Virus record (IMG/VR): IMGVR_UViG_3300030099_001544
Location: 1-20,032 of that record
Reading direction: 5' to 3' (one strand)
Source: a virus
DNA: 20,032 nt
This document shows, piece by piece, positions 6,053-17,649 of this stretch. The notes below the pieces were generated by a model, which did not search any database, was not told where the DNA came from, and saw only the letters and a list, made by a program, of their open reading frames with translations. Each line of letters starts with the position of its first letter. Position 1 is the first letter of the stretch. The translations under genes and the position numbers were made by a program.

Positions 6053-6759
6053 CACGCTTTCTTTGTCATAAGGAAGTCAACAACAAGCTCAACGAGCCCT
6101 GATGGACCGCGCACGCTAGGCGAATGATCAACATCAAGACCGCTGCTGATAACAGCTGAACCAACAAAAAGCCGCCCATAGGCTATTGGCACCGCAAGGC
6201 CCTGCTGGCTGGTGTTAGTGATTCCGCTGAAGCTGAAGTTTTGAATTCGGTTGGCTTCTTTTAGCTCAAGCCCTGAAGGTGGCGTAGGGGAGATGATCTG
6301 TGAGACGCCTGTCAGAACCAAGCCAGCGCCAACAGCAGACAACGCCGTGCCGACGGTCGTCAGTGTTCCGATTGTTGCTGGAGCCAATGGGCCAAATGCA
6401 CCAAATCCAGCGCCAAACAAGCCAGCACCAGGAAACAGGAATGACGCACCGATCAACAAACCGCCAAAAACAAACCTGCCAAAACCACCAGCACCAGCAA
6501 CGACAGGTGTGATGCTGAAGACCTCACGCTCTGACCAAGGCAAACTCAGCACGCTTAGGTCACTAGGTGTCGCCTCCTCTCTGCCAACCTTCACCCGATA
6601 AGCGACGCCATCCTGCTCGCTATCAATCAACCACTTGTCCAAGCCAGGAAAGTTGACGCACAGAGCCTTGATCGCCTGCGCTGGTGTTGCCACGTTCAGC
6701 TCAAACCGGCACTGCCCTAATTGCTCCCGCAGAGCGCCGTAGACCTTAACGACTTTCAT
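6052..6759 (-). CDS. Tail tip assembly protein, gpI family
   Basis: The 235-residue protein follows gpK as in lambda. Residues 1-90 look like a beta-grasp (ubiquitin-like) domain (VVKVYGALREQLGQ, FELNVATPAQAIKALCVNFPGL, LSVLSLPW), the usual gpI N-terminus. Residues 88-160 are Gly/Ala-rich and hydrophobic (VVAGAGGFGRFVFGGLLIGASFLFPGAG, TVGTALSAVGAGLVLTGV) and could span membranes. Residues 180-220 (NFSFSGITNTSQQGLAVPIAYGRLFVG) are the conserved gpI C-terminal motif. Known gpI works with gpK, whose JAMM domain may act on the ubiquitin-like part. That link is inferred from the domain pairing, not shown here. The stop overlaps the gpJ start (GTGATG). Confidence 0.92.
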   Translation of the reverse strand: MKVVKVYGALREQLGQCRFELNVATPAQAIKALCVNFPGLDKWLIDSEQDGVAYRVKVGREEATPSDLSVLSLPWSEREVFSITPVVAGAGGFGRFVFGGLLIGASFLFPGAGLFGAGFGAFGPLAPATIGTLTTVGTALSAVGAGLVLTGVSQIISPTPPSGLELKEANRIQNFSFSGITNTSQQGLAVPIAYGRLFVGSAVISSGLDVDHSPSVRGPSGLVELVVDFLMTKKA

Positions 6760-7453
6760 GACGTATCGCCCGGTCTGTGGCCTTCAAATAATAGCCACCC
6801 AGTAAATCCCTAGAACTCAAGCGGCCCTGCACATGATGCAAAATCTGCTGCTCGCCAAGATAGATCGCAGCATGATTTGGGACAGGTGACTGCAGGTTCA
6901 TCAGCAGCAGGTCACCTCTCTGCAGCTGTTCAACCGGCACCCGTGAAAACCCTTCCTTAGCGAAGTTCTCCACATACATGTTCTCCCCGTTGTGCCACCA
7001 CTGATCGCGTCGGTGATAGTCCCTCAACGTGATGCCATATTCACGCTGAAAGAAGTCACGCACCAACGTGTAGCAGTCCACAATCCCGTGGACAAACTCA
7101 CGGCCTACATATTGCAGCTCAAACCCCTCAGGCTCGCAGTAGCCCCAGCCCTCAGTTTTTGGATTGACGATAAACCAAGGCAAACCAGATTTCTCACAGG
7201 CAACACGATCAGCCTCTGACGGCCTGGGGTTCGTTACAGGGTGACTGTGGCAAATCGCCACCACCTCGCCCTTGTCCTCTACCTCATGCCAGCCATCGAG
7301 CACAAAATGCTCATCAGGTGTCTGGGCAATGTTCCGGCAAGGGAAGTAACGACGCCTGCCCTTTACAACAGCAACTAGGCCGCAGGCTTCTTTTGGGAAC
7401 TCATCCTTAGCGTGCTGCAGGATTTCCGCCTGCATGGTGGCAGTCAGCTTCAT
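6746..7453 (-). CDS. Tail tip assembly protein, gpK family (JAMM metalloprotease plus NlpC/P60)
   Basis: The 235-residue protein has two enzyme domains, as in lambda K. Residues 1-115 are a JAB/MPN domain with the JAMM metal site: Glu22 (PKEACGL), His69 and His71 in HSHP, Ser79 and Asp82 (HxHx7SxxD). Residues 118-235 are NlpC/P60 with Cys127 (VDCYTLVRDFF), His194 (NHAAIYLG) and a downstream His206/His207. JAMM domains cut isopeptide-like bonds and NlpC/P60 enzymes cut peptidoglycan peptides. In lambda, K is needed for tip assembly and is not clearly retained in the virion, so a role in wall passage is possible but unproven. All expected catalytic residues are present. The gene overlaps gpL by 4 bases and gpI by 14. 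Confidence 0.94.
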   Translation of the reverse strand: MKLTATMQAEILQHAKDEFPKEACGLVAVVKGRRRYFPCRNIAQTPDEHFVLDGWHEVEDKGEVVAICHSHPVTNPRPSEADRVACEKSGLPWFIVNPKTEGWGYCEPEGFELQYVGREFVHGIVDCYTLVRDFFQREYGITLRDYHRRDQWWHNGENMYVENFAKEGFSRVPVEQLQRGDLLLMNLQSPVPNHAAIYLGEQQILHHVQGRLSSRDLLGGYYLKATDRAIRHESR

Positions 7454-13553: not shown

Positions 13554-16082
13554 TCAAGCGGTGGTGATGTCTTCGATGGAAGCGAAGGCAGTTGCTTGGC
13601 GAACCGCGACATCAAAGGAAACGATGCCACGAACCGAGGTCAGAGCCTTGCTGAAGTCATCGGAGTCAGTGCCCACGGTGATCTCAAGGCCGTTGCCGTA
13701 GAAGCCCAGCATGGCCTGGCTGAAGTCACCAGCAACCAGAGCGGAGCAAACGGCAGAAGCGGTGCCCTTGGTCAGGTTGGAAGGCACAGCGTTGGTGACG
13801 GCGATCGGATAGCCATTCAAGGTCAGAGGCGTGGGGCCGCGACCAATGGCTTGCAGATCAGAGTTGTAGAGGAAAGCACCGTCAGTGGTGGTGGAACCAC
13901 CAGCGCGGAGTTTCTTCAGAGCACCCATCACCTTGGCGTTGGTGATGTAGGCCATGTTCGGGCCTGCTGCGTTGTCCTGCGTGACCTCAGTTTCAAGGTC
14001 AACAACCTTTTCCATGGTGATCGCGCCACCGTTGGTGCCCATAGCCACCGAGCCGATGCCGGAGGTGTTGCGGATGCCGGTAGGTTGACCGGAAGAACCG
14101 GAGCCGTTCAGCACTGCAGCGTCGATGGCAGTGTTGATGCCATCAGTCAGGTCACGACGGATCAGCTCTTCAATGCCAGGAGTGGCCTGAAGCAGAGTCT
14201 GACGGCTGTACTTAGACAGGGCTGCCAGATTCTTAGGGCTCATCGTCACCTGATCAAAGGTGGACTCAGCCTGAGTGATTGCGGTGGTCTCAGAAGAGAG
14301 GTAGCTGGTGGAAGCAACACCGGAGCGACGGGGGATAGCCACGTCACCGACCAAGCCGGTCAGAGTGCGAACGCCCAGGCCAACAACGGGGGAAGCGTTC
14401 CGCAGTGCTTCTATAAAATCGTCGGCGAGGAGGTCGGTGGCGACAAGATTTCCTCCCACATTGGCCGTTGACGTGACATAAGTCGCGCGTTGGCTCAGTG
14501 CAGAGAAAGGAACAAAGAAGGTGCGCTCGCTAGTGGCGGTCAGGCCAGAGCTGCGTGCAACTTCTTGGCTCAGTTCACGGACCAGGCCGGCACCGTGGGA
14601 GGACCAGTCACCAGTGATCAGGGCGCGAACGCCATCCATGATCTGGTAACGGGACTGAGTGCCTTGATCCAGATCAACAGGAGCCACGGTCTCAACCGGC
14701 TTGGCGCCGATCTTCTCAAGCACAGCCTCACGGGCCACGTCGAGAGATGAACCGTTCTCGATCAGTTGATCAGCCAAGTCACGCATTTCGTGCTTGCTGC
14801 ACAACTCTTGGATGTTGCGGATGCGGTTGCGCTCTGCAGAAGCTGCCTTTTTGGAAGCTTCATCGCGCACCACATTGATGTCGGGTGCTGTGGACATTTG
14901 ATTCTCAGAATCGGGTGAACTTTGTGGTGCGACGCGAGCCGCAGAATCCGCCGTAATGGCTTCTTCTTTCTCGATTGTAGTAGCGGGAAGCAAGGATCTT
15001 CCCACCCCAATCTTGGGATCAGCAGGCACGCTGACGATGGAAACTTCGTAAGGCTCCCAGTTCGTCGCTACAAACTCATTGTTGCGCTCTTCCATCTCCT
15101 TAATCCGGTAACCAACGCTGATATTTCTCATCACGCCATCTTTGACATCGGTCAAAATTTCCTGCGCAAAAGAGTTACGGCTGAAGCGAACGCGGCTGTA
15201 GCCCTTCTTTTTGTCCTTGTCTAAGTAGGCACGCTCAACAACACCGATCGGTCGATCCATGTCGTGATTGAACAGCAGCGGTGCGCCGTCGTTCAGTCGG
15301 CCAAGATCAGCAGCGCCATCCTCATGGCTCAGGACCTCCATGCCAAAAGCCCGCTCTACTGGATATTCAGAGCTAAAGCTGAACTCCATAACGCGGTCTT
15401 CCTGCTCCTCGAACTTGGTCTCGCCAGCCCGCTTGTAAAGCGCAGGAGCAGAGCGCAGAGCAGCAATCTTGGTCAGCGTTGAGAAGCGGTGACCAACCTG
15501 CACATCAGTTGGCTCATTGCCTTCATCGGTCTCGCGATAAACCGTGATCAGTGCAGCAGGGTCATCCTCATCACCGTTCACAGTGAAGTCAGAATCAGGA
15601 ACATTGATTGTGCCGTCACGCTCAATGCGATCAATGCGGCCTTGTGCAGTGCCACCTGAGCTGTTCCAACGCACGAAATCTCCGACGCTAAGTTCGTCGG
15701 GCTCGGCCCTTACTTGCGATTTGTCGGACATAGTACGTTCGCGGATTTCTTTAATTCTATCCGCCTTGTTAGTAGCCCACACCTGCCCAGGGTCTCCGCC
15801 CCACGCAGCCCAAGCCACACGGCCATTAGACGGGTAGCCGTCTTCCCCAGGCGAAAAACCTTCGCCTTGCTTGTCAACTTCGTGGCGGGCGAACCATGCA
15901 GCCATGGTGATCACTATGTCGGCAGACAGTTCATCACCGCTCAGGATCTGCGTGGCTCTGCGTGCTGCAACCTCAGTGCCGCCAGCTTCACCGTCAGCCT
16001 TCCAATCGCGATAACGCTGCGCCTCTTCCCTCATGCCTTCTGTAGGCATCAGGTCGATCTCTGTGCCGTTAATAGTTGCCAA
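13554..16082 (-). CDS. Fused Tudor-like module, S78 prohead protease and HK97-fold major capsid protein
   Basis: From the preferred TTG at 16082 the product is 842 residues. Residues 1-115 are a phage-specific module (AQRYRDWKADG, FARHEVDK, YPSNGRVAWAAWGGDPG). Residues 130-185 (LSVGDFVRWNSSGG..GRIDRIERDG) look like the HVA1 Tudor family. Residues 230-362 are an HK97-type S78 protease with likely catalytic His273 (FNHD), Ser322 (VMRNISVGYRI) and Glu346 before VSIVSVPADP. Residues about 396-500 are helical and charged, like a scaffolding delta domain. The rest is HK97-fold capsid (PRRSGVAS, STFDQVTMSPKNLAALSKYSRQ, YITNAKVMGALKKL). TTG is chosen because GGAGG lies 6 bases upstream at 16089-16093; the frame is open further up to a TTG at 16148 and an ATG at 16109. 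Known relatives cleave themselves during prohead maturation. One gene doing protease, scaffold and shell is unusual. An internal ATG at 14897 could give capsid alone. Confidence 0.9.
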   Translation of the reverse strand: MATINGTEIDLMPTEGMREEAQRYRDWKADGEAGGTEVAARRATQILSGDELSADIVITMAAWFARHEVDKQGEGFSPGEDGYPSNGRVAWAAWGGDPGQVWATNKADRIKEIRERTMSDKSQVRAEPDELSVGDFVRWNSSGGTAQGRIDRIERDGTINVPDSDFTVNGDEDDPAALITVYRETDEGNEPTDVQVGHRFSTLTKIAALRSAPALYKRAGETKFEEQEDRVMEFSFSSEYPVERAFGMEVLSHEDGAADLGRLNDGAPLLFNHDMDRPIGVVERAYLDKDKKKGYSRVRFSRNSFAQEILTDVKDGVMRNISVGYRIKEMEERNNEFVATNWEPYEVSIVSVPADPKIGVGRSLLPATTIEKEEAITADSAARVAPQSSPDSENQMSTAPDINVVRDEASKKAASAERNRIRNIQELCSKHEMRDLADQLIENGSSLDVAREAVLEKIGAKPVETVAPVDLDQGTQSRYQIMDGVRALITGDWSSHGAGLVRELSQEVARSSGLTATSERTFFVPFSALSQRATYVTSTANVGGNLVATDLLADDFIEALRNASPVVGLGVRTLTGLVGDVAIPRRSGVASTSYLSSETTAITQAESTFDQVTMSPKNLAALSKYSRQTLLQATPGIEELIRRDLTDGINTAIDAAVLNGSGSSGQPTGIRNTSGIGSVAMGTNGGAITMEKVVDLETEVTQDNAAGPNMAYITNAKVMGALKKLRAGGSTTTDGAFLYNSDLQAIGRGPTPLTLNGYPIAVTNAVPSNLTKGTASAVCSALVAGDFSQAMLGFYGNGLEITVGTDSDDFSKALTSVRGIVSFDVAVRQATAFASIEDITTA

Positions 16083-17649
16083 GATCTTCCTCCGCGACGT
16101 TCTCTGCATCCTCGCCACCAGGCGCAGGCGTGTCACCAAAGGCGTCAATGGTGTTGGCCGGCTTGTACTGGCTAGCGCCGCTGGCGTTCACAGCAGACGG
16201 ATCAGTGTCAGTGATGATGTTCATCTCGTCGAGCTTGGCCAGCTCTGACTGACGGGCAACCAAGAACTCATCAAAGTCGCCACCGTTTTCAGCCACACAA
16301 TCGGCAAGCGTCTTGAACCCGCTGCGCACTGCCGCCTTCTGTGCAGCGATTTCCTTCTGCGGGTCAACGTAGTGGTAGCCCCTGCAAACCCAGCGCACAG
16401 CCTCATAACGCTCAGGCTCAGTCTCATAAGTAGGCAGATTTAGTGCGCCACTAAGCACAGCCATCTCAAGCCAAGCGTCATAAATCGGCTGATAAAACTG
16501 GTCTTTCATCATCTGCTGAATGGATCGCCAGTTGTCGCGGTCCTGCAGTAGAGCGAGTCGTGATGACGAATAATTTGACTGCGAATAATCGTTGCTGAGC
16601 ACCTCGTAGCTACATCCGACACCCGCACCGAGTGCCCTGAGCTGTGCCCTGAGGAACGGCTCATATTCGCCATTAGGCGAATCCATGTCAGGAATGGTGA
16701 CGGTTTCCCCAGGTGCTAGGTAGGCAAATTTGCCAGGAGAAAACGATTCGACTCTTTCGTTCTCAAAAACATCGTCGCCAACTAGCTCCCCTTCAGGTGA
16801 TTGGATGAATCCCATCAGAGCAGAACTTGCGCGAGCACGCACAACGCTTGCCTGTTCCCATCCATCTAGGTGGTGCATCCTCTGCATGGCAGATGCAAGC
16901 CACGGCACGCCACGGGTCTGACCAGGACGCGCAGATGTCCGGTCAAACAGATGGATAACATCCTTTGCCGGGACAATGATGTGACGCTTGCCAGGCTCCC
17001 GCGTGGGGAACGCCGTGTCGCCAGGGTGACGGCTTAGGAAGGCGTAGCTGACGGGACGGCCAAACTTGTCCAGCTCAACGCCGAGTTTCCAAACGTTGCC
17101 GGGTTTGGTTGCAGGGCTGTTGTAGTCCTCATCAAGCTGGTCAGCCTCCAGCACCTCAAGGGCAAAGTTGACTTTGCTGCGGCCAAACTTCTGACGCACC
17201 ATGCGGATAAAAACTTCGCCGCTCTCGCACATTGACGAGACAGCAAGCTTTTCAATATCGGCAAAGCACAGCAGCCCTGCGGTGTTGCAGCTGTCCTTAC
17301 GGCCCCACATCGACCAAGCTTTTTCAATCTGCTCGTTGATGCGGGTATCAAGCTTGCCGCCACGCTGACGCATCACCTGCGCTTGCAGCCTGACGCCTGT
17401 TCCCACAACAGAGTTGCGGACAACACGGACAACAGACTTTGCGTAATCGTTGTCGCGTACAAGCTGCCGCGATCTAGACCGCAAACGTTTCAGGCTGCCC
17501 TTGATCTCTTGGTCAGCAGAGGTGACAGAGGTGACCCAGTCAGATGTCAGACGACTGGTCTGAGCACCGCCAAACATGCGAGCGCGTGGACGCTGCAAAG
17601 GCTCAGGATTTGTGCGCCACAGTTCGCGCCATGCAGAACGGATGCCCAT
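16069..17649 (-). CDS. Portal protein, lambda gpB family
   Basis: This 526-residue protein is the dodecameric ring at the capsid vertex through which DNA enters and leaves and on which the connector is built. It matches the lambda-type portal family (Phage_portal_2). Recognisable blocks are the N-terminal NDYAKSVVRVVRNSVVGTGV segment, the LEVLEADQLDEDYN block, the IVPAKDVIHLFDR..RPGQTRGVPWL block that precedes the stem helix, and NDYSQSNYSSSRLALLQDRD near residue 360. The length is close to lambda gpB (533), so it looks complete. It begins with ATG one base after the gpW-like stop (TGACATG). The 3' end overlaps the start of the capsid polyprotein. Its acidic C-terminal tail carries the GGAGG used by that next gene. 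Confidence 0.94.
   Translation of the reverse strand: MGIRSAWRELWRTNPEPLQRPRARMFGGAQTSRLTSDWVTSVTSADQEIKGSLKRLRSRSRQLVRDNDYAKSVVRVVRNSVVGTGVRLQAQVMRQRGGKLDTRINEQIEKAWSMWGRKDSCNTAGLLCFADIEKLAVSSMCESGEVFIRMVRQKFGRSKVNFALEVLEADQLDEDYNSPATKPGNVWKLGVELDKFGRPVSYAFLSRHPGDTAFPTREPGKRHIIVPAKDVIHLFDRTSARPGQTRGVPWLASAMQRMHHLDGWEQASVVRARASSALMGFIQSPEGELVGDDVFENERVESFSPGKFAYLAPGETVTIPDMDSPNGEYEPFLRAQLRALGAGVGCSYEVLSNDYSQSNYSSSRLALLQDRDNWRSIQQMMKDQFYQPIYDAWLEMAVLSGALNLPTYETEPERYEAVRWVCRGYHYVDPQKEIAAQKAAVRSGFKTLADCVAENGGDFDEFLVARQSELAKLDEMNIITDTDPSAVNASGASQYKPANTIDAFGDTPAPGGEDAENVAEEDLGNY
16089..16093 (-). promoter_or_regulatory. Shine-Dalgarno GGAGG deciding the capsid polyprotein TTG start
   Basis: On the minus strand GGAGG is followed by the 6-base spacer AAGATC and TTG at 16082. 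It lies inside the last codons of the portal gene, 20 bases before its stop. This spacing is close to ideal and supports translational coupling of portal and capsid from a rare TTG codon. The downstream sequence MATINGTEIDL looks like a natural N-terminus. Confidence 0.7.

Follow-up and report, generated by a model that had tools for sequence, protein, structure and literature searches.

The window, by which we mean the whole 20,032-base virus contig analysed here, comes from a marine-type phage and holds a single match to the capsid polyprotein described below. The polyprotein gene lies on the minus strand (Table 1), a point absent from the preliminary description of this DNA. It is preceded on the same strand by genes for the terminase large subunit, a head–tail joining protein and a lambda-family portal protein, and is followed by head–tail and tail genes, which identifies the region as a siphovirus-type head–tail block. 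Also on the minus strand of the window are a tail gene with JAB and NlpC/P60 domains (6746-7453) and a gene whose 724-aa product combines many NTAVG-type repeats with an S74 intramolecular chaperone at its C-terminus (535-2709).

Table 1 Features of the capsid polyprotein gene, in window coordinates
Feature	Position	Strand	Basis or remark
Capsid polyprotein gene (module A - Tudor - S78 protease - delta-like scaffold - HK97 capsid)	13554..16082	minus	842 aa
TTG start codon, overlapping the portal gene 3′ end	16080..16082	minus	start-codon column conserved in most relatives
Stop codon of the polyprotein gene	13554-13556	minus	
GGAGG Shine-Dalgarno-like site of the polyprotein gene	16089..16093	minus	sequence
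Portal gene (Phage_portal_2), upstream of the polyprotein gene	16069..17649	minus	Pfam
Module A, helical, phrog_2859-type (residues 12-105)	15768..16049	minus	PHROGs profile, model
Hva1-type Tudor/SH3-like barrel (residues 128-206)	15465..15701	minus	PF11160, model strands, VIA-align
S78 (HK97-type) prohead protease domain (residues 213-350)	15033..15446	minus	Pfam, model
Protease His273	15264-15266	minus	invariant
Protease Ser322	15117-15119	minus	invariant
Low-confidence (disordered) linker (residues 351-400)	14883..15032	minus	pLDDT <50
Helical HK97-delta-like scaffold region (residues ~401-535)	14478..14882	minus	model; between protease and capsid
Probable mature HK97-fold capsid (residues ~543-842)	13557..14456	minus	PF05065, 8gta start, fold match
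Internal ATG, Met118; matches the likely start in relatives without module A	15729..15731	minus	alignment
Internal ATG, Met396, not conserved	14895..14897	minus	alignment

The start of the polyprotein gene overlaps the portal gene by 14 bases. Most aligned relatives have ATG, GTG or TTG at residue 1, in many cases preceded by an AGGAGG-like site, and this start-codon column together with the Shine-Dalgarno-like sites supports the TTG at 16082 as the start. A scan for promoters and terminators found nothing exceeding shuffled sequences. About 50 relatives (41–95% identity) encode the same domain order in a single uninterrupted ORF, and neither chance nor sequencing error accounts for a fusion that is kept so widely. 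We could thus rule out a missed stop, a frameshift or a chance ORF, and with them the possibility that protease and capsid are separate genes.

Domain architecture and processing of the polyprotein

Profile searches agree with the preliminary description of one real gene that combines Tudor-like, protease, scaffold-like and capsid parts. Pfam matched Hva1_TUDOR (PF11160; E 9.4e-7, 29.3 bits against a gathering cut-off of 24.1) and, also above their cut-offs, Peptidase_S78 (E 7.9e-11) and Phage_capsid (PF05065; E 7.3e-43). That description had also placed a phage module at the N-terminus, before the Tudor domain, and this part, which we call module A, matched phrog_2859 in PHROGs (E 1.6e-25, profile positions 160-266 of 740 only). 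The protease-to-capsid part matched phrog_617, ‘major head protein’ (E 9.7e-121), so the S78 protease and the HK97-type capsid share one uninterrupted ORF as a phrog_617-type fusion. The match to NCBIfam NF045541 (scaf_prot_MCP2) was below threshold, at 182.1 bits against a cut-off of 525 and over model positions 3-259 of 634. Among aligned relatives, the invariant residues of module A include W27, R66-H67, D70-K71, YPS83-85, AW90-91 and WGGD94-97, and those of the Tudor domain include GD and SGG. Protease residues H273 and S322 are likewise invariant, and we take them to be the S78 catalytic residues. The domain content, the single ORF, the conserved start and the invariant active-site-type residues are all directly observed.

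An AlphaFold2 model of the N-terminal part has a helical module A and a Tudor-type barrel with strands at residues 135-205 (pLDDT ~82). A further model (overall pLDDT 65, and hence good for domain-level use only) has a protease barrel at 214-349, helices at 401-510 and the capsid, with a disordered linker at 351-408 below pLDDT 50. The barrel and the scaffold-like region anticipated in the preliminary description are therefore both present in the models, and the predicted delta-like helices precede the capsid as in HK97-type procapsid maturation. VIA-align matched the barrel to Tudor chains in rows covering the Tudor part only. Since the Z values are middling (up to 7.6), we base the Tudor assignment on the Pfam hit and on the match of PF11160 to every Tudor-bearing relative (35 of 35). 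A Foldseek search of the PDB with the N-terminal model returned nothing at E 0.001 or better, and a phmmer search of PDB sequences with the Tudor region gave no match. The Pfam namesake, Cryptococcus HVA1 (CNAG_02591, PDB 4p5n; PMC5008624), aligned to the barrel with Z 6.7 and 28% identity over 61 residues; it is, however, a stand-alone fungal protein with a proposed metabolic role and no link to head assembly.

The capsid part matched the fold of HK97-type capsids, best of all that of Dinoroseobacter phage vB_DshS-R4C (vBDshSR4C_006, PDB 8gta), whose mature capsid has been solved. The R4C protein is likewise a protease–scaffold–capsid fusion, with 33% identity over polyprotein residues 197-829, but lacks module A and the Tudor domain. 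Its 629-aa product is represented in 8gta by a chain that begins at residue 362, which aligns to polyprotein residue 543, so the polyprotein is probably cut near this position and everything upstream removed. The mature capsid would by homology be ~31–32 kDa. The preliminary description had noted that several hundred protease copies would start in the shell if every subunit carried one. R4C has 415 copies of its fused MCP in a T=7 shell, in a paper that does not discuss the protease (PMC10276861). A procapsid with protease copies in the hundreds is therefore probably usual for such phages.

Fusions of protease and capsid were already known, as the preliminary description had it. Examples are VP882, phiHAP-1, S-LBS1 and R4C, and a capsid–protease fusion was called notable in a recent phage report (PMC12760985). 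VP882, phiHAP-1 and ECO1230-10 (NF045541/phrog_617) likewise encode S78 and an HK97-type capsid in one ORF, but match only from about residue 200 and thus have no module A or Tudor domain; the S-LBS1 fusion also lacks both. The N-terminal part is not peculiar to the source phage. The cultured phages S-CBS1 and S-CBS3 (Synechococcus) and CRP-811 (Roseobacter) encode the same order of module A, Tudor, S78, scaffold and capsid directly after the portal gene (37–42% identity over 98–100%), annotated just as ‘major capsid protein’, and CRP-406 and CRP-821 carry module A. The N-terminal modules are not mentioned in those parts of the literature on S-CBS1, S-CBS3 and CRP-811 that we consulted, and we found no description of Hva1_TUDOR or DUF2945 in phages in the open-access literature. 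We conclude that the A–Tudor–protease–capsid arrangement already sits unremarked in public genomes; what looks new is module A and Tudor as a portable head-assembly unit.

Internal starts and natural loss of module A

Internal initiation at the ATG at 15731 (Met118) or 14897 (Met396), both put forward in the preliminary description, would yield Tudor–protease–capsid or capsid-only forms and dilute the protease in the shell. In three relatives without module A (L095, L096 and L153), stop codons lie a short way ahead of the Met118 equivalent, which makes this their likely start. In the source phage, however, no Shine-Dalgarno site precedes Met118, and the position is Met in only about half of the relatives. 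Three others (L106, L107 and L109) have lost module A by an in-frame join of (V)ATI to DRMRKIQDRTM that retains the original start. The Met396 column is mainly E, V or M, and mostly E or V outside the source phage, so that this start is not conserved. In a synonymous-rate scan for hidden start sites, the variable linker was covered only by close relatives. We regard internal initiation as quite improbable, although there may be minor use of Met118.

We followed the gain and loss of the N-terminal modules among relatives fetched by their capsid part. Among phages with capsids 83–95% identical, module A is absent in 11 tree rows and both modules are absent in L142; two more distant rows, L166 and L167, also lack both, which makes three in all. 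The protease–capsid ORF is intact in all of these. In a capsid tree of 96 rows, the A/Tudor label switches at least 9–11 times across well-supported branches, a count to be read with the caveat that a recombined 5′ part could look like an independent loss. The group nearest to the source phage places a relative with module A (L092) beside one without it (L095). On capsid-chosen loci, mean identity was 90% for module A, 89% for Tudor and 88% for the capsid. On loci that had been selected by module A, this module seemed better conserved than the capsid; we dropped that impression, as the two are equal on capsid-chosen loci. From these comparisons of sequence, module A is an accessory part in this lineage, but where it is present its conservation equals that of the capsid.

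Some of the relatives carry variant N-terminal parts. In L059 two tandem Tudor domains lie ahead of the protease (L072 agrees with it in length and match pattern), and in L081 and L083 (CRP-821) an extra domain is inserted between the N-terminal modules and the protease, CRP-821 being without Tudor.

Module A and Tudor in other head proteins

We scanned for module A and for Tudor in other proteins, keeping the best 80 loci of each scan; because of this limit, and because the Tudor profile was partly built from the capsid-polyprotein family, the proportions that follow are rough. Among these loci, module A lies near the C-terminus of 30 proteins, including 14 with Phage_portal and 10 with Phage_portal_2, and at the N-terminus of 66, including S78 (17), Mu-F (10), XkdF (9) and ClpP (1) proteins. 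Tudor co-occurs with S78, XkdF and portals in the same set, and is also found with scaffold-like coils; module A is in the same ORF at 38 of 76 Tudor loci and within 3 kb at 22 of 76, and is often found without Tudor. Split versions keep the gene order of the polyprotein: a portal–Tudor gene followed by an A–S78 gene (L206), an A–S78 gene followed by a capsid gene (L218, and likewise L246), an A–Tudor–S78 protein (L208) and a portal–A–Tudor protein (L303). In Limnohabitans phage DC31, module A and Tudor belong to adjoining head genes and keep their relative order: A–XkdF comes first, then Tudor with a coil-rich C-terminal part in a separate gene, then a Phage_cap_E capsid, whereas the source phage has S78 and an HK97 capsid. 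Haloarcula virus HATV-3 carries module A in the C-terminal part of its portal. Module A was also seen in two contigs binned, provisionally, as Euryarchaeota (L330 and L331), one of which encodes a full A–protease–capsid protein.

Module A and Tudor are thus portable: they turn up in portals, proteases and further head proteins, and module A has been repeatedly lost or gained. What the proteins that carry them have in common is that they build the procapsid at its portal end. Of the partnerships that had been considered for the N-terminal modules, this domain context favours the portal or the scaffold. We propose, at about even confidence, a self-processing capsid polyprotein in which module A and Tudor serve as a portable adaptor of the procapsid interior. 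Subunits would co-assemble into a procapsid through their capsid and delta-like scaffold parts, with module A, Tudor and protease hanging inside, and the adaptor would assist in positioning or nucleating protease and capsid at the portal. The S78 protease would then cut the chain, leaving a shell of residues ~543-842 and freeing the rest. That the two modules are an internal and removable adaptor is a role suggested by domain context, and we hold it to be evenly balanced. The copy number implied ranges from 12 in a portal fusion to ~415 in the capsid fusion, a range that a strict portal-docking role does not predict, and the intact protease–capsid ORF of relatives without module A, or without either module, indicates that such an adaptor is at best accessory.

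The preliminary description had also raised DNA binding by the Tudor barrel. On this reading Tudor and module A would bind DNA inside the head or while it is being packaged. SH3-like barrels can bind nucleic acid, and elsewhere module A is mostly basic (median pI ~10). In the source phage, however, both modules are acidic (module A net −7, pI 4.5; Tudor net −10, pI 4.2), and the charge of module A varies widely within the capsid-fusion class. Charge is not conserved, which argues against non-specific DNA binding as a shared role, and we judge this explanation highly improbable. As a separate observation, L168-L194 have a strongly basic module A in ~1500-aa proteins, like DSL-LC01 and L087.

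Alternatively, the N-terminal modules may be accessory cargo, or a unit against host defences, that is delivered through fusion to any head protein, travels within the head until the protease releases it, and is kept or lost according to the host. This would account for the very frequent gain and loss among relatives with capsids 83–95% identical and yet conservation of module A, and for fusion to many unrelated head proteins. A few of the scanned proteins also have Ferritin-like or Zeta-toxin domains, which would suit such a unit. The contexts are, however, almost all head-assembly genes at the portal/protease junction, and we consider a cargo unit unlikely. At one scanned locus (L243, 4311-7490), a 1060-aa protein joins a Ferritin-like domain to both module A and Tudor.

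Returning to the adaptor, we suggest somewhat tentatively, at a little under even confidence, that module A and Tudor form an undescribed unit of the procapsid interior that has been plugged, split or joined, into portals, proteases of several families, Mu-F proteins, scaffold-like coil proteins and capsid polyproteins, and that is very quickly gained and lost. The natural deletions provide ready-made test pairs, with near-identical capsids that carry or lack module A. The presence of the extra modules suggests that head assembly includes, at its portal/protease stage, a shared function that has yet to be named.
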